This document shows positions 4,796-11,017 of a stretch of 64,000 nucleotides of DNA, piece after piece. The notes beneath the pieces were generated by a model, which was given only the letters and a program-made list of their open reading frames with translations, made no database searches and was not told the DNA's origin. This stretch comes from Paenibacillus pabuli (lineage in GTDB: Bacteria > Bacillota > Bacilli > Paenibacillales > Paenibacillaceae): contig NZ_CP073714.1 of the NCBI RefSeq assembly GCF_023101145.1, positions 5,766,001 to 5,830,000 on the forward strand, in the 5' to 3' direction. The position numbers and the translations under genes are program-made. How positions within the stretch are numbered: position 1 is the stretch's first letter; every line of letters starts with the position of its first letter.

Positions 4796-5752
4796 ATGAG
4801 TAAGGAATCTACCACAATACAAGAATTAATACAACAAGCCGTGAATAAGTATGTATCCTCGGATGCTCAAATACTAAGTATTGAGAGTAACCCTATTGGT
4901 ATGGGATTTCAGGCTGTAGAATTGCTTCGACATCATAGTGAATTCCTGTCTAATAGAGAGAAAAAGGACATTTCTCTCATTACGAAGAAGGCCACATTCG
5001 TTGAACGCTCTGCCTTGTCCAGATTATTTTCACAAGGCGTTAATGTGCCCTTTAGTCTATCCAATGAGCCTCATACAGAAGATCGCAGCTTGATCTGCAT
5101 TCAGGATGTGGACTACCAAACCGATTATAACCATCTCGATATGGATTTGCTTCAGAATAAAGAATTACGAGCGCTGGCTTACATACATGGAACGAATATG
5201 GGGTTAAAAAAAGAAATGCCCTGGATACCCACTGTGGATCGAAATCATATCATCGACATGATGGAAAACCGTTGGAGACCTTCGTGGAACGCCACCATAG
5301 AAAACCCCGCATTCATTGAGGAATTTGGATTACCGATCATATATGAAATTGAAGCTGTAGCCAGTAGGATCATAGATGATCTTGAAGTTTTAATCAGAGA
5401 TGAACATATGCATACGATGATCCATAATGATCTGAATCCCGGAAACGTACTGGTACATAACAATGAGGATGTCTATTTTATCGATTGGGAGGAAGCAAGG
5501 TACGGCTCCCTATTCTTCGATGTTCCTCTGCGCTGTAGCCATATGAGACAAGTAGACATCTATCGGGGGGCCCTAAGTTCCCACGGATACGATATTCCAC
5601 AAGATCAATTCGAAAAGTATTTCTCCCTGGCATCCCGATACCTCGGCATCCGCTATATGAGTTGGAACCTTGGGGTATGGGAACAAAACTCATATGCAAA
5701 AGACGACTTAAAAAAGTATATGAAGATGGTAACTCAACCTTTGTTCTCCTGA
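4796..5752 (+). CDS. APH-fold phosphotransferase family protein
   Basis: The 318-residue protein has the catalytic loop HNDLNPGNVL (H210, D212, N217) and the metal-binding aspartate in FIDWEEA (D230), the signature of aminoglycoside/choline/homoserine kinase folds. It should transfer a phosphate from ATP to a small hydroxylated substrate in the cytoplasm. The N-terminal lobe is less conserved than in known antibiotic kinases, so resistance cannot be claimed; a metabolite or sugar kinase is equally likely. AAGGAGCG lies 7 bases ahead of ATG. It is a single gene that meets the amidohydrolase gene end to end. Confidence 0.85.
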   Translation: MSKESTTIQELIQQAVNKYVSSDAQILSIESNPIGMGFQAVELLRHHSEFLSNREKKDISLITKKATFVERSALSRLFSQGVNVPFSLSNEPHTEDRSLICIQDVDYQTDYNHLDMDLLQNKELRALAYIHGTNMGLKKEMPWIPTVDRNHIIDMMENRWRPSWNATIENPAFIEEFGLPIIYEIEAVASRIIDDLEVLIRDEHMHTMIHNDLNPGNVLVHNNEDVYFIDWEEARYGSLFFDVPLRCSHMRQVDIYRGALSSHGYDIPQDQFEKYFSLASRYLGIRYMSWNLGVWEQNSYAKDDLKKYMKMVTQPLFS

Positions 5753-5804
5753 TCCCCTCCTCATTCCAGGTTAAGCATAAGATGAATTCACTGTTTTGCC
5801 GGAC

Positions 5805-5839
5805 AAAAAAGCTCCTGCCACCAGAAGTAGCAGGAGCTT
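5805..5839 (-). terminator. Rho-independent terminator for the amidohydrolase operon
   Basis: A perfect 10-bp stem (AAGCTCCTGC with GCAGGAGCTT) is followed on the minus strand by six T. It lies 23 bases after the stop of the gene ending at 5862. Confidence 0.9.
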
Positions 5840-5861
5840 CATGATAATCATGAACTGGTGC

Positions 5862-6740
5862 TTAACCCAGATCTGCAATTCGCTGTTCAATGCGTGGAAA
5901 TAGACTAAAAGCATTCTCGTAGAATACCTTATCATGATGCTGCTCTGGCACAAGTCGGCGGACGAATTCGGCATAAAGATCGATCGGCGCGAGCGGCCAG
6001 TCAGTCCCGAACAACATTTTCTCATAATGATCCGAATATACCAGCGCCCGGCGGAAATGATCCATGAACAAGGGTTCGTTCATAAACCGTTCAAAATGGG
6101 GGCGATCACCCACAACGAGGCCAGACAGATCTGCGTATACGTTAGGATTCTTCGCAACTACTTCAGCGGCATCCATCACCCAAGGATCGCCCAAATGACA
6201 GATCATAAAATTCACGCCGCGCTGTTGAAAGGCTAATTCATCCACGGTCAGCGGATGTGCATACTTGAGCAATCCATTCATGGAGTACGTATCCCCCGTA
6301 TGAATGACTACAGGGACGTTATACTTGGCTGCCAGTTCATAGACCGGTGTGTAGATCTTGTCATACACGTAGTGATGATAGTATCCCGCATATAGCTTGA
6401 TCCCAGCTACCTCAGGAGCTTGCAGTCGTGCTTCTATCCGGTCCAGTTCGTCCTGAGCGTGTTCACCACCAAGGTGATTTGGATTAATGCCGACGCATTC
6501 CATGAGGAATGACGGAACTGTTTCTTCCAAATCAAGTCCCATCGGGTTGGGTGAACTGGAATCCGGGAATGCTCCCTTCGTCTGCTCCGTAACCCCCATA
6601 CCGATGCCAAGAATAACGTCGTTCTTATCAAACTCCGCCTTGAGGCCAGCGGCAGAATAATCCACTTTGGACAAATCGATCGCCGTTCGATGAAAGCTGT
6701 CGATGTCCGACAGATGAATGTGAATATCAATAATCGGCAT
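5862..6740 (-). CDS. Amidohydrolase-2 family metal-dependent hydrolase
   Basis: The 292-residue TIM-barrel protein has the first metal motif IDIHIHL near the N terminus, HTGD in the middle, CHLGDPW, and FGTDWP near the C terminus, which is the set of the amidohydrolase-2 (PF04909) group. Members hydrolyse or decarboxylate small ring compounds and lactones in the cytoplasm; the substrate is unknown. A longer frame reaches 6773, but the ATG at 6740 has GAGGAGG 7 bases upstream and begins MPIIDIHIHL, so it is the likely start. The stop of the upstream 1051-residue fusion gene ends one base away, which implies translational coupling and a common task, perhaps in handling a modified sugar. Confidence 0.9.
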   Translation of the reverse strand: MPIIDIHIHLSDIDSFHRTAIDLSKVDYSAAGLKAEFDKNDVILGIGMGVTEQTKGAFPDSSSPNPMGLDLEETVPSFLMECVGINPNHLGGEHAQDELDRIEARLQAPEVAGIKLYAGYYHHYVYDKIYTPVYELAAKYNVPVVIHTGDTYSMNGLLKYAHPLTVDELAFQQRGVNFMICHLGDPWVMDAAEVVAKNPNVYADLSGLVVGDRPHFERFMNEPLFMDHFRRALVYSDHYEKMLFGTDWPLAPIDLYAEFVRRLVPEQHHDKVFYENAFSLFPRIEQRIADLG

Positions 6741-6741
6741 G

Positions 6742-9700
6742 TTAAGCCTCCTCTTCACCTTTTGAAGTTGCAAAGTTTAGCTGCAAAAGGCCATGTAGAT
6801 CCTCCGAATTCAGAGGAATTTGCCCCAAGATCAGATAGGTCGGCTCTGTCCAGACCGTTTCCCCGTTCGGGAGTGTCAGATGATGATTCACGTTTTGACC
6901 AGTGACTTGATTGTTGGCAAAAGCCCAAGCACTCTGATTCGGATAACGGTTCACCGCATGAAGCATGTGTTTACGCGAAACTGATCCTGTTCGCAAAATA
7001 TCCTGCAGTGGCAGGCCCACATCCACCTTGCCAAGCGGGAATCGATCCTTGCCCGGTTGCTCTATCCAACCTTCTGCAAACACAGGTGAAGGTTGAAAAA
7101 AACGCTCCTCTGCAAGGGAATAATTCGTCAGCATCAAGCCGCTTTCGTTGGTTACGGCAAGCAGTGTACAGAGCACGGGAACGCCAGGCAGCATCAGATA
7201 GTGCTGATGAATCGTGATGCCCCGATTCATTTCATGCTTCTCAATTCGGGTGGTCAGCCTTACGCCCTTCCAAACGTTGCCGGATTGATCCTTCTGTTCT
7301 GTCCAGGAGGCCGCTCTCGATTCCGATTGGCGGCTGAAACCGTTCATGCCGGGAATGCCCACACCCAGTCCGCCGTACCACGGATTCCACCACGAACGTG
7401 GTGCCGGTTCAGGATACGAGCTATCCAGCCATTCTTCCCCCTGATATTTCAGAGAGTGTACAACGCTTCCGAAGTTCGGAGCCACAGCAATGGATAGTAC
7501 GCCATTGTTCACGGTGTACAAAGTCCCCGTTGGTCCTTCTTCACTCACACGTTCAACATCTGTTCCAGTCTGAGGAAACCAGAGGGCCGTTCGCTCCTGA
7601 ATTCGATCCTCCCCACGGTATACCCCACGGACCTTCCAACCACTTCCGTGCTCGTCATGAAGATTCGTTTTCTCAGGGGAGAACTCCACCTTTGCCGTAT
7701 CCAACTGCTGTTCCGAATTGAATTCCGTGGCCATTGCCGTGTACTCCGGTTCGCCGCCATTCTGCACATATAGCTCCAGCTTGCCAGCGAGCGGAACCAG
7801 TTTACGTTCGTTCAACTCCACTTTTAACACTTCTGGGGTAAATGGATTACCGCCACTCAGCGTCAGATCAAGGTGACTATCCAACAACGGGAGGACCGGG
7901 TTACGCTGCTTCCGGGCAAATGCCCGGAAATCCGACCATTTGGCAAAGGTGTTCAGGGCAAATACGGTTTCCTTGGTACGCGCCACGGTTCCCGCCTCCA
8001 AACGCCCAATCTCATGCTGCAACCCGAGCGTGTATTCTGGCCGGATCAGCTTCAGGGAAGGGTCCCAATAGATGCCGCATGCACCATACTCCTCCTTGCA
8101 GAACAACCAGTTCTCCGTAATCTGCGCACTGTCCCAGTGGTTCGGATCGCCTGCATAATCATCACCCATATCCACAAATCGGCCCTGATAAGGAAGGATT
8201 AAGCCGTTTCCGAAAAATCCAAAATTGTTCATCAGGAATAAGTCCTCTTCCCATGCTGTGCCTCGTGTATTTTCAATCTCATGATGGAATTCGGCAATTC
8301 CGCTCGCAGACAGCTTGACGACAGACTTGATCTGTAAGCCAGGGAAGTCCTCCGAGTCATAGATGGCCTCGAAAATTTGCCGTTCTCCCTCGGGATAAAT
8401 CTTCACTTCTCTCGCTTGTTTTTTGGACAGCTCCTCTGCGTACGGCTTGCCCAGCTTCGGATAGGTCCACCAAAACGTGTGACGGGACCCAGGGTATTCA
8501 ACCCACATGATATTATCCTGCTTGCCCATATGGAGAGAGAATGCGCCGTTTACAGCTACCCACTGGTCTCCGTTCTCCCCGCCATAACGTCCCTCTATCC
8601 CCTTCATCAACACAGACATCTTGGTTGTAAAAGATACCGCCTGTTTATCCGTCGGAACAGCCGTTACCACGACTTCTTGCGAATAAAGTCCATACGAATG
8701 TAATGTAAAGGCTATCGGTACAGATGCTTTACCTTTTGCAGGGACCGTGAAGCTTACCGAACGTTCTGCCCACTCCAGAAATTCGTCTTCCGGCAGGTCA
8801 AAAGAGAACTCCGCTTCGGAATCAAAATTATTATCCACGTTCAGGTATAGCTCAGCCGGGATACCTGTATAGAGCTCTTTTACAGGCAACACCGTGTTGA
8901 TCTTAGCCGGAAATTTCGGGGCAACGCCCATACGAAACTCGGCTTTTCTGCCACCGATCAGCCATGTGCTCGCAACAACGGGATGGGTCTTATTCTGACT
9001 CTGCTCCTCCTTAACCGGGTCAAGGTGGAACGCCCCTTCCACGTATACCGTTTCTCCCGGAGCAACAGCTCTCGCATCGTCCAGCGCAAAACGAATATTT
9101 TTGTTGTCGTGACCCTTGATCTCGAACTTCAGCTCGGAAGTTGAGCGGTTCGTGATCCGGTAACGAACCTTGTATTCGGAACCAAATACGAGATCATGAT
9201 CGTCGATCTCTGTGAAGATTTCGTAATCTGGTGTTTCGAGAGCTGTAAGCCCTCGACCGGACTTCTCGAATTCGGCTCGCAAGGAGATATCTCCCTTTTT
9301 CCAGGAATAATCAAAGAAATCGAAACCACGCTCCCGTCGGCCATCCGGCTCGATAACGAGTTCACGCGTGCTGTCTGCGTACCAATCCAGTTCCTCAAAA
9401 TAAGGTGCAAGTGCTTCCGTCTGCAAAATGGTCGGGATGAAATTCATCAGATGCACATTATCATCTTTTTTCTCCCAGAAGAACCCGCATTTCTTGTACA
9501 TCGGTACAGCCTTGGTGTTACCTGCCCACGTGAACAGATCCAGGCGAGGCCATCCCGCTTCCACGGTCTTGCGAACGGCGTTCAGGATCAGATTACGTCC
9601 GACCTTGTAGCCGTGATAATCGGGACGAACATTCAATAGCGGTACATACAATGCATTCTCGTCATAGCGGTAGTGCGCAAAACTGCAAAAACCAACAACC

Positions 9701-9897
9701 TCATTTTCATGAATAGCGAGAAACGCGTTGAGATTGGACGAACTCTCCATCTCCCGGCGAACGGTATCTTCCGTTCTCTGGTTGGTGCCGCCTCCCCAAC
9801 TTTCATTGCTGCGGTTCCACATATCAGCGAGTGCGGCAGCGTAGGAGGGATCGTATTCAATAATGCGGATTTGTTCGATAATCGAAGTTACGGTCAT
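6742..9897 (-). CDS. GNAT acetyltransferase fused to a very large beta-sandwich region
   Basis: The 1051-residue protein has a complete GNAT domain at residues 10-150 (motif A around LNVRPDYHGYKVGRN, and the late NTKAVPMYKKCGF). The remaining 900 residues are beta-rich: an immunoglobulin/NEW3-like stretch (about 230-420, APGETVYVEG, VPAKGKASVPI) and then sheets with many W, Y and H that look like a galactose-mutarotase fold (about 440-1040; RSWWNPWYGGLGVGIPGMNG). There is no signal peptide, so it should be cytoplasmic. The AAGGAGA site 10 bases before ATG supports the start. It is transcribed first, coupled to the amidohydrolase. One reading is acetylation of a carbohydrate-linked substrate held by the sandwich domains; that is inference. 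The frame is uninterrupted, so the fusion is real in this sequence. Confidence 0.85.
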   Translation of the reverse strand: MTVTSIIEQIRIIEYDPSYAAALADMWNRSNESWGGGTNQRTEDTVRREMESSSNLNAFLAIHENEVVGFCSFAHYRYDENALYVPLLNVRPDYHGYKVGRNLILNAVRKTVEAGWPRLDLFTWAGNTKAVPMYKKCGFFWEKKDDNVHLMNFIPTILQTEALAPYFEELDWYADSTRELVIEPDGRRERGFDFFDYSWKKGDISLRAEFEKSGRGLTALETPDYEIFTEIDDHDLVFGSEYKVRYRITNRSTSELKFEIKGHDNKNIRFALDDARAVAPGETVYVEGAFHLDPVKEEQSQNKTHPVVASTWLIGGRKAEFRMGVAPKFPAKINTVLPVKELYTGIPAELYLNVDNNFDSEAEFSFDLPEDEFLEWAERSVSFTVPAKGKASVPIAFTLHSYGLYSQEVVVTAVPTDKQAVSFTTKMSVLMKGIEGRYGGENGDQWVAVNGAFSLHMGKQDNIMWVEYPGSRHTFWWTYPKLGKPYAEELSKKQAREVKIYPEGERQIFEAIYDSEDFPGLQIKSVVKLSASGIAEFHHEIENTRGTAWEEDLFLMNNFGFFGNGLILPYQGRFVDMGDDYAGDPNHWDSAQITENWLFCKEEYGACGIYWDPSLKLIRPEYTLGLQHEIGRLEAGTVARTKETVFALNTFAKWSDFRAFARKQRNPVLPLLDSHLDLTLSGGNPFTPEVLKVELNERKLVPLAGKLELYVQNGGEPEYTAMATEFNSEQQLDTAKVEFSPEKTNLHDEHGSGWKVRGVYRGEDRIQERTALWFPQTGTDVERVSEEGPTGTLYTVNNGVLSIAVAPNFGSVVHSLKYQGEEWLDSSYPEPAPRSWWNPWYGGLGVGIPGMNGFSRQSESRAASWTEQKDQSGNVWKGVRLTTRIEKHEMNRGITIHQHYLMLPGVPVLCTLLAVTNESGLMLTNYSLAEERFFQPSPVFAEGWIEQPGKDRFPLGKVDVGLPLQDILRTGSVSRKHMLHAVNRYPNQSAWAFANNQVTGQNVNHHLTLPNGETVWTEPTYLILGQIPLNSEDLHGLLQLNFATSKGEEEA

Positions 9898-10134
9898 ATT
9901 TGGGTCTCCTTATCTTTATCTATAGGATGGTCTTCGTGATCTTTCCGATATGGCCTTTGCCCGATAGCCGCAGAGATGATACAGGCCATGTTTGAAGAAG
10001 CTAGCGATAGTCTTATCATACTATAAATGGAAACATTTTCAGAGGATTAAAAATCTTTCTTTTCAATCATATAAGTGCCTTTCGGAAGCTTTTGTTCGAA
10101 GCGTCAAGGATGGACGAAGCTATTTAGGTATGAA

Positions 10135-10168
10135 AGAAAAAATCCACGTCTCTGAGTTAGACGTGGAT
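10135..10168 (-). terminator. Terminator downstream of the mazEF locus
   Basis: ATCCACGTCT and AGACGTGGAT form a 10-bp stem with a 7-base loop, followed on the minus strand by a run of six T. It lies about 30 bases after the end of the decayed toxin gene. Confidence 0.85.
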
Positions 10169-10198
10169 CTAGGTATACGAATAGCTACTAATCTTCAA

Positions 10199-10534
10199 TT
10201 ATGCCAAAATAGAACGGACATTTCGTAGAACTGATTTCATAAATTCAGAGGTTGGTTCGGCATGCCCCGCAATTTGAATACGTCGTTGCCGAACATCAAG
10301 ACTCTTCAACTGATCTGTCAAAACAACACCTGAAAATGGCAGGTCTTCTGGTAGTATAACTTCAAAAGGATAATCCTTGGCATGGCTCGTTATGGGACAT
10401 ACAACGGCAAACCCCGTTACTTCATTGAATTCATGTTACGATAGAACAACAGCCTGTCGTCTCCCGGCTTGCTCATAACCCGCTTGAGGATCAAAGTCAA
10501 GCCATATCAGATCGCCTCGCTTGGGAATAATCAA
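10199..10534 (-). pseudogene. mazF: MazF/PemK toxin gene with an in-frame stop
   Basis: Translation of the minus strand from the TTG at 10534 gives a MazF-type endoribonuclease: IPKRGDLIWLDFDPQAG, then GRRQAVVLS, then after a TAA codon at 10436-10438, HEFNEVTGFAVVCPITS and further conserved sequence to a normal stop at 10199. The frame is the same on both sides of the TAA, and total length (about 111 codons) fits the family. The stop therefore interrupts codon 33 and should remove toxin activity, unless it is read through or is a sequencing error. The TTG overlaps the antitoxin stop (TTGA), and a GAAGGGAA site lies upstream, the normal arrangement for MazEF. A single base change, for example CAA to TAA, would account for it. 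Confidence 0.85.
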
Positions 10535-10833
10535 AGTAATTCGTTCCCTTCAGTGCCAAAGTCTATTTCTTCATGTCTTGTATCCTGTTTCACTTTAGAG
10601 AGCAAAGTCTTTAGATGGTTACGTAGTTCCTCATTGGACTCTACAGGCTTGGTTTTTGGACGCAACAACAATTCATTATCTTCTGTCACCAAAATCTCAA
10701 TTTCCGAGCCTTCTTCCAGATTAAGACGCTTAAGCAATTGGTTGGGAATGCGAATTGCACTGCTATTTCCCCATTTACTAAGTGTGGCTGTAGTCATGGC
10801 AATCCCACGCCTTTCGTTTGATTGATGCTCCAA
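10531..10833 (-). CDS. mazE: MazE/PemI-type antitoxin, AbrB-fold
   Basis: The 100-residue protein carries the swapped-hairpin DNA-binding domain TLSKWGNSSAIRIP followed by LLKRLNLEEGSEIEI, and an acidic, flexible tail that normally wraps the toxin. It should bind MazF and repress its own promoter. The start is uncertain: a TTG at 10833 has a strong AGGTGAGG site 5 bases upstream, while the ATG at 10797 gives the more usual N terminus but has only a distant site. The partner toxin at 10199-10534 is broken, so this antitoxin is an orphan and may act only as a regulator or as protection against a related toxin elsewhere. Confidence 0.88.
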   Translation of the reverse strand: MEHQSNERRGIAMTTATLSKWGNSSAIRIPNQLLKRLNLEEGSEIEILVTEDNELLLRPKTKPVESNEELRNHLKTLLSKVKQDTRHEEIDFGTEGNELL

Positions 10834-10975
10834 CTATACCTCACCTCTCTACAGTTGCATATCTATATGATATACATACAACAATTGTATTCTACCGTAA
10901 AATAATTATTGTAAAAAGGGTTAGTCACTGTCAACGGTAGTGTGCACAGGGTGCGTCAGATAACACCACAAACAG

Positions 10976-11017
10976 AAAATGGCTCTTTCCGCCTTATCGG
11001 ACAGAAAGAGCCATTTT
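10976..11017. terminator. Bidirectional terminator after rarD
   Basis: AAAATGGCTCTTTC and GAAAGAGCCATTTT form a perfect 14-bp stem. A/T tracts inside the stem give U-rich 3' ends on both strands; on the minus strand it ends the rarD transcript. Confidence 0.85.

Follow-up and report, generated by a model that had tools for sequence, protein, structure and literature searches.

A 64,000-nucleotide stretch of Paenibacillus pabuli DNA (hereafter the window), whose source is a single contig of 7.6 Mb, encodes on its minus strand a 1051-residue protein in which a GNAT acetyltransferase domain is joined to a long stack of beta sandwiches; the gene directly downstream encodes an amidohydrolase. An earlier note, made from this sequence alone, had described a giant GNAT fusion at 6742–9897 without stating its strand, which is minus. 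We confirmed that the fusion beside the amidohydrolase gene is real. The protein is built in one piece with recognizable predicted folds at its two ends, the hydrolase retains its catalytic residues, and within the window's family the two genes keep the same order, occur in the same genomes, and have diverged in parallel.

Our tentative reading is that the fusion acetylates a carbohydrate-bearing amine in the cytosol and that the paired hydrolase processes a related compound of one shared pathway, an explanation that we rate somewhat short of an even chance. An acetyl-coenzyme A (acetyl-CoA) N-acetyltransferase would be permanently built onto a stack of beta sandwiches ending in a galactose-mutarotase-type supersandwich without the mutarotase residues. 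The stack would bind and present a carbohydrate-bearing molecule, the GNAT domain would acetylate an amine on it, and the metal hydrolase of the amidohydrolase superfamily would take a related compound of that small pathway as its substrate. From the fold, the conserved aromatic and acidic residues, and the gene linkage, we infer that an acetyl group is transferred, that the substrate contains a sugar, and that both enzymes serve one pathway. The elements of the locus are:

6742–9897, minus strand: coding sequence of the GNAT–beta-sandwich fusion, one frame of 1051 amino acids with an ATG start
9433–9873, minus strand: GNAT N-acetyltransferase domain, residues 9–155 (PF00583 and fold matches to GNATs)
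8608–9339, minus strand: two immunoglobulin-like (Ig-like) beta sandwiches, residues ~187–430 (model strands; borders and count inferred)
7903–8589, minus strand: middle beta domain, residues ~437–665 (model strands)
7558–7884, minus strand: third beta sandwich, residues ~672–780 (model strands; Ig-like)
6760–7560, minus strand: galactose-mutarotase-like supersandwich, residues 780–1046, with a WWNPW.GG motif (fold matches, conserved residues)
6747–6755, minus strand: AAGAGGAGG, ribosome-binding site for the amidohydrolase, within the 3' end of the fusion gene (read from the sequence)
5862–6740, minus strand: coding sequence of the 292-residue Amidohydro_2 protein (PF04909; invariant metal-ligand residues)

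The fusion frame starts at 9897 and stops with TAA at 6744–6742. Its nearest named relative found, from Paenibacillus taichungensis NC1, is 91% identical across the full length, and fusions in one full-length frame were found in the window's family, with identities of 31–91%, as well as in other Bacillota through profile matches. Because such frames recur in many genomes, we rejected a chance join, an assembly error, and the frame error joining two genes that had been raised as a possible cause of the fusion. Some copies are broken by a stop or frame change (L072 and L027, for example) and were kept unaltered in the data. In a sample of 398 Bacillota genomes from 266 genera, the fusion profile matched 25 genomes in 16 genera, with open frames of 1012–1155 amino acids; the fusion family thus extends well past Paenibacillus. 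The other prospect raised beforehand, that the GNAT and sandwich parts might exist as separate genes, was not borne out: a profile lacking the GNAT part (A6, E 1e-5) found no sandwich part apart from a GNAT in the 398 genomes, in a search that scored at most two candidates per genome, so that a rare separate copy could escape. The 24 genomes it matched all belong to the 25 fusion genomes, and the open frames that hold these matches span 1012–1124 amino acids. Because the two halves were not found apart, the sandwich scaffold probably belongs to the function of the protein.

The acetyltransferase domain called in the earlier note is well supported. PF00583 matched residues 28–139 with 46.5 bits (cut-off 20.7); only GNAT families were above the Pfam cut-off, with no match reaching it outside this domain, and no NCBIfam model reached its cut-off for the protein. 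In the structure model, the GNAT part aligned to 4mbu with Z 16.7 (147 residues aligned, root-mean-square deviation 2.7), and the GNAT structures among the best 50 matches of the fold search gave Z 15.7–16.7 to the fusion model, where, according to the tool, the best Z is typically 7 to 8 for models without a clear match. Twenty-one divergent members, all of them except the window protein itself 30–47% identical to it, each matched PF00583 when scanned singly (E up to 0.5; best 9.9e-17). A profile built from them matched 22 distinct solved sequences, all inside positions 6–150, which is the GNAT part. Residues N127, Y134, H95, K98, and G100 are invariant in all 21; we take the first two to be at the positions usual in GNATs for CoA binding and acid catalysis. 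The CoA loop reads H95-x-x-K98-x-G100, and the usual pyrophosphate-binding motif of GNATs is R/Q-x-x-G-x-G/A.

Structure prediction and fold search agreed with the suggestion that about 900 residues of beta sandwich, with a possible sugar-mutarotase fold, follow the GNAT domain. The alignment-based model (32 aligned sequences; predicted local distance difference test, pLDDT, 83; predicted template modeling score, pTM, 0.71) has ~880 residues after the GNAT domain that are beta strand almost throughout, the only helices of at least four residues after residue 168 being at 654–661, 853–857, 1031–1038, and 1047–1050. A model from the single sequence was poor (pLDDT 34) and was not used. The mutarotase fold is borne out for residues 780–1045, with Z ~20. 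The C-terminal domain matched 5cd6 (Z 20.5, 246 residues aligned, root-mean-square deviation 3.1) and 3mwx (Z 20.2, 232 aligned, 3.0), and mutarotase-type proteins overall gave Z 16–20. The two Ig-like sandwiches at ~187–430 drew weak, below-threshold Pfam matches to the Ig domains CFAP65 and FixG_C. The strand order of the middle domain, read by eye from the model, parallels that of 780–1045, and a profile comparison aligned the two domains in register, though weakly (E 0.011, probability 4%); the middle domain is possibly a second supersandwich as modeled, and it is barely covered in the VIA-align fold list, by that list's own note. Profile comparisons among the sandwich domains were all weak, the best being between the first and second Ig-like sandwiches (E 0.002, probability 14%). 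Matches to the glycoside hydrolases 7ufs (GH38; 681–1039) and 8jd7 (GH174; 683–1046) span the third sandwich plus the C-terminal domain. A viral fold library returned long matches to sandwich-rich proteins with query TM scores of at most 0.14 in the best 50, and these were uninformative.

Galactose mutarotases use a His and a Glu in catalysis. Across the 21 members, no His in residues 780–1046 reaches 85% conservation, as judged by conservation, not superposition. Because of this, mutarotase chemistry is, from the residues present, very probably absent, and the C-terminal supersandwich is probably a binding module. The residues E595, W597, W836, N838, D870, N874, and W876 of the middle and C-terminal domains are invariant in the 21 members, and these Trp, Asn, and acidic residues would fit a sugar-binding surface.

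As listed, the amidohydrolase frame has a TTG start at 6773, which would make it overlap the fusion gene. Codon 12 of this frame is an ATG (6740) that follows AAGAGGAGG by 6 nucleotides and matches the start of most aligned relatives. With this start, the stop of the fusion gene and the start of the amidohydrolase are separated by one base (6741), just as the earlier note had it. PF04909 scored 91.2 bits against a cut-off of 26.4, and PF01026 (TatD) was barely above its cut-off (29.8 vs 27 bits). Residues H7, H9, K115, H147, H182, and D247 are invariant in the 23 aligned sequences. The metal ligands of Amidohydro_2 proteins are an HxH motif, two further His, and an Asp, and the corresponding set (H7, H9, H147, H182, D247) is kept in 23/23, so that the protein looks like a competent metal-dependent hydrolase. 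The two genes appear to form a unit that is probably co-transcribed. The fusion protein has no signal peptide evident by eye, which suggests that it is cytosolic.

To survey the gene neighborhood, we used 295 genomes of the window's family, here called the Paenibacillus family after the named Paenibacillus relatives of the fusion protein. Thresholds of E ≤1e-150 for the fusion and ≤4.3e-101 for the amidohydrolase were chosen after viewing the lists, and they fall in wide gaps (next best per genome 2.6e-8 and 7.3e-19, respectively). The fusion was present in 122 genomes, the amidohydrolase in the identical 122, and neither in the remaining 173. The tight coupling that had been proposed was evident throughout: in 122/122 the amidohydrolase is adjacent and downstream of the fusion on the same contig and strand. 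The gap between the matches is at most 60 nucleotides in 112 of these genomes, and the five gaps above 80 nucleotides (194 to 1285) come from fusion matches that end short of the C-terminus. When 79 flanked loci were read (L002–L040 and L071–L110, some of which share a genome), the amidohydrolase followed the fusion in 77, including one (L101) in which it is cut by the contig end. Tree distances of the two proteins correlated with r 0.95 over 72 distinct pairs, a value reached by none of 1000 permutations, and the fusion has diverged 1.9 times as much as the hydrolase. The next commonest neighbor families in 47 loci were response regulators (15), ABC ATPases (14), and histidine kinases (12), none with a fixed place; gene picking in this comparison missed some amidohydrolase frames that were found in the flank reading.

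Some loci vary around this arrangement. One (L137, 5576–13033, minus strand) has two full-length fusion genes in tandem before a single amidohydrolase gene, and in another (L140, 7967–12486) the homologue of the fusion is divergent and the gene that comes next, overlapping it by one base in the listed frames, encodes an amidohydrolase of another kind, PF07969. In L076 and L077, the pair is followed on the same strand by genes that we named by eye from the sequence as a response regulator and a histidine kinase. Upstream of its intact fusion gene, locus L004 carries a relic of that gene (7900–8361) that retains the promoter region, roughly 20 codons from the start of the gene, and a fragment corresponding to residues 184–263; a MazE/MazF-like pair separates the relic from the intact gene. 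L005 and L021 have a short frame matching this relic.

Beyond the family, the amidohydrolase (threshold E 1e-20) was found in 32 of the 398 Bacillota genomes, 13 of which have both genes. Outside the family (391 genomes), the fusion occurs in 18, the amidohydrolase in 25, and both in six (Fisher p 0.0004, kinship ignored). The amidohydrolase is adjacent in three of the 18 fusion genomes (G601, G643, G683) and absent or a weak match in 12. A scan of all species with the window protein alone gave 39 loci, all titled Paenibacillus or Paenibacillaceae except one, Bacillus sp. FJAT-27264. A plasmid of Cytobacillus spongiae carries a near full-length fusion match (98% of the query, 29% identity).

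The amidohydrolase was also seen without an adjacent fusion. In three genomes from a single genus (L177, L179, L180), it comes directly after deoD, an assignment that NCBIfam confirms for L177 and L179; in three genomes from two families (L148, L149, L163), it stands before a DegV gene, confirmed in every case. In G441 a cluster resembling purine degradation, its genes named by eye, lies between the fusion and amidohydrolase genes. These contexts are too lineage-bound to fix the substrate of the amidohydrolase. Of the 20 amidohydrolase regions read, two (L174 and L176) gave no scored frame and were not counted, and L181 is a second, weak match in G407.

Several of these observations, together with others, count against a carbohydrate-directed acetyltransferase working in one pathway with the hydrolase. 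Among the 398 genomes, 12 of the 25 with the fusion have no amidohydrolase at E 1e-20, and 19 of the 32 with the amidohydrolase have no fusion. Both are present but unlinked in three of the six shared cases outside the family (G441, G349, G387), and no amidohydrolase lies within 9 kb of the Cytobacillus plasmid copy. Within the family, the amidohydrolase is missing next to the fusion at two loci, L040 and L071; in the genome where L071 is the second copy, the first (L072, stop-interrupted) does have this neighbor. The correlation of the trees also reflects common descent. Use of acetyl-CoA by the fusion is not certain, as judged from the loop, because the invariant K98 replaces the usual Gly and the invariant H95 the usual Arg or Gln. 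The fold does not show the function either, since supersandwiches occur also as structural modules. With both genes in six of 391 genomes (18 hold the fusion and 25 the amidohydrolase; p 0.0004) and with cases in which the genes lie apart, the association extends beyond the local, but either protein can dispense with the other. The overall interpretation in the earlier note stood in its domains, its fold, its coupling, and the lack of a described enzyme in the literature searched; its idea that the pair acetylates and hydrolyzes parts of one conjugate is a conjecture. If the refuting case of separate genes is taken to mean the fusion and the amidohydrolase, it applies in part: the two genes are adjacent in every one of the 122 family genomes and in other Bacillota may be unlinked or occur alone.

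Other explanations fit parts of these data. The sandwich half could itself be a glycan- or sugar-processing enzyme, making a bifunctional protein that cuts or rearranges a sugar conjugate while the GNAT caps the freed amine. The third sandwich and C-terminal domain match 7ufs with Z 16.5 and 8jd7 with Z 15.8, the C-terminal domain alone matches the rhamnogalacturonan lyase 1nkg (780–1046, Z 16.2), LacZ ranks first in Foldseek (E 5e-11), and E595 and D870 are invariant with E822 and E859 near-invariant. The sandwich domains of LacZ and GH38 are, however, not the catalytic barrel, and no barrel domain of the kind in LacZ-type or multi-sandwich glycoside hydrolases is present in the fusion model. 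The LacZ match has a TM score of 0.15–0.17 and is, in the model, a common run of sandwich domains without a common overall shape. GNAT was the only enzyme family among the 13 Pfam families matching any of the 21 members (E 0.5), and the lack of a conserved His in 780–1046 also speaks against catalysis there; we consider this explanation improbable. A rather low but somewhat better chance goes to a protein acetyltransferase, in which the stack would recognize a protein or glycoprotein and the GNAT would modify a lysine or N-terminus, the amidohydrolase being unrelated and co-transcribed. Ig-like domains often bind proteins, the GNAT domain scores weakly with RimI-type models, and the amidohydrolase occurs without the fusion in 19/398 genomes. 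The RimI-type scores are nevertheless far under their cut-offs (best 25.4 vs 86.4 bits), and the 122/122 adjacency with identical family distribution is hard to explain with an unrelated partner.

Detoxification or resistance, in which the fusion would acetylate and so disarm a natural product carrying an amine and the hydrolase would clear a related reactive compound, would suit the all-or-nothing distribution (122/295 genomes), the putative streptothricin acetyltransferase among the nearest PDB sequences, and the one fusion copy on a plasmid. Against it, neither protein has a PADLOC match, no phage matched at E 1e-5, and only one of 72,556 plasmid records matched at E 1e-10. The hydrolase, moreover, evolves in step with the fusion at roughly half its rate, a pattern more like metabolism than an arms race, and we regard this role as quite unlikely. 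GNAT toxin–antitoxin systems have a small DUF1778-type antitoxin as partner; the regular partner here is the amidohydrolase. A more ambitious version of the carbohydrate-directed acetyltransferase that we prefer is an undescribed class of intracellular Bacillota enzyme, in which the GNAT and a double supersandwich together form the substrate site for an amino-sugar conjugate in an acetylate–hydrolyze cycle with a dedicated amidohydrolase in the Paenibacillus family; we find this conceivable but doubtful.

Upstream of the pair, two further elements were noted:

10015–10042, minus strand: promoter-like CTGAAA-16-TATGAT for the two-gene unit (conserved in near relatives)
10007–10024, minus strand: operator-like, imperfect palindrome ATAGTATGATAAGACTAT, which covers the -10 region (conserved in near relatives)

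The promoter scan was not above chance (4 found, 5.4 expected), and the support for this candidate is its conservation in near relatives. The 18-bp palindrome pattern occurs in 57 of 151 loci; some of these, including L014 and L015, carry it on both strands and thus as a perfect palindrome. We named no regulon from it, since the 7.6-Mb genome has a single exact copy and a single copy with one mismatch. A catabolite-responsive element (cre)-like sequence, TGAAAATGTTTCCA, at 10041–10028 is not kept in L022 and L026 and was not relied on. A terminator-like stem lies upstream at 10170–10140, in a terminator scan that was overall not above chance, and no Rfam family was found at 5000–11000. Farther upstream (10196–10833), the window has a MazE-like antitoxin gene (10531–10833, minus strand) with a MazF-like toxin frame beside it that is interrupted here and open in L004.

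Among the papers listed in the literature searched, which covered few subscription journals and no preprints, we found no description of this build, in keeping with the statement in the earlier note that it knew of no such enzyme. The parts are of known kinds, and their combination is undescribed in that literature. An annotation of only "GNAT family N-acetyltransferase," as on the Cytobacillus plasmid copy, the one public case seen, gives no account of ~85% of the chain. The pairing, near-strict in the Paenibacillus family, offers a direct genetic handle and could reveal a new metabolite or modification.

Compared with known systems, the GNAT part resembles other PF00583 proteins (for example, PDB 4mbu and PaiA, 1tiq) in fold and in the length of residues 9–155, and presumably in the places of its invariant Asn and Tyr. 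The fusion differs from these in its additional ~880 residues of beta sandwich and in having His-x-x-Lys-x-Gly where usual GNATs have Arg/Gln-x-x-Gly-x-Gly/Ala. The amidohydrolase shares its profile match and metal-ligand set with the Amidohydro_2 family (PF04909), including the nearest PDB sequence, 3irs (BB4693, uncharacterized), which it matches at 29–35 bits; the window's protein differs in adjoining a GNAT fusion. Residues 780–1045 share the fold of galactose mutarotase/aldose 1-epimerase and other supersandwich proteins (3mwx, 4bze, 5cd6) at Z ~20, but with 11–14% identity over the match, without a conserved histidine, and as part of a larger chain instead of a separate protein. The order of a beta sandwich followed by a supersandwich is shared with the multi-sandwich glycoside hydrolases LacZ/GH2, GH38, and GH174 (the last being the subject of PMC11943901), whereas the fusion model has no barrel domain and its whole-chain TM score against LacZ is the 0.15–0.17 given above.

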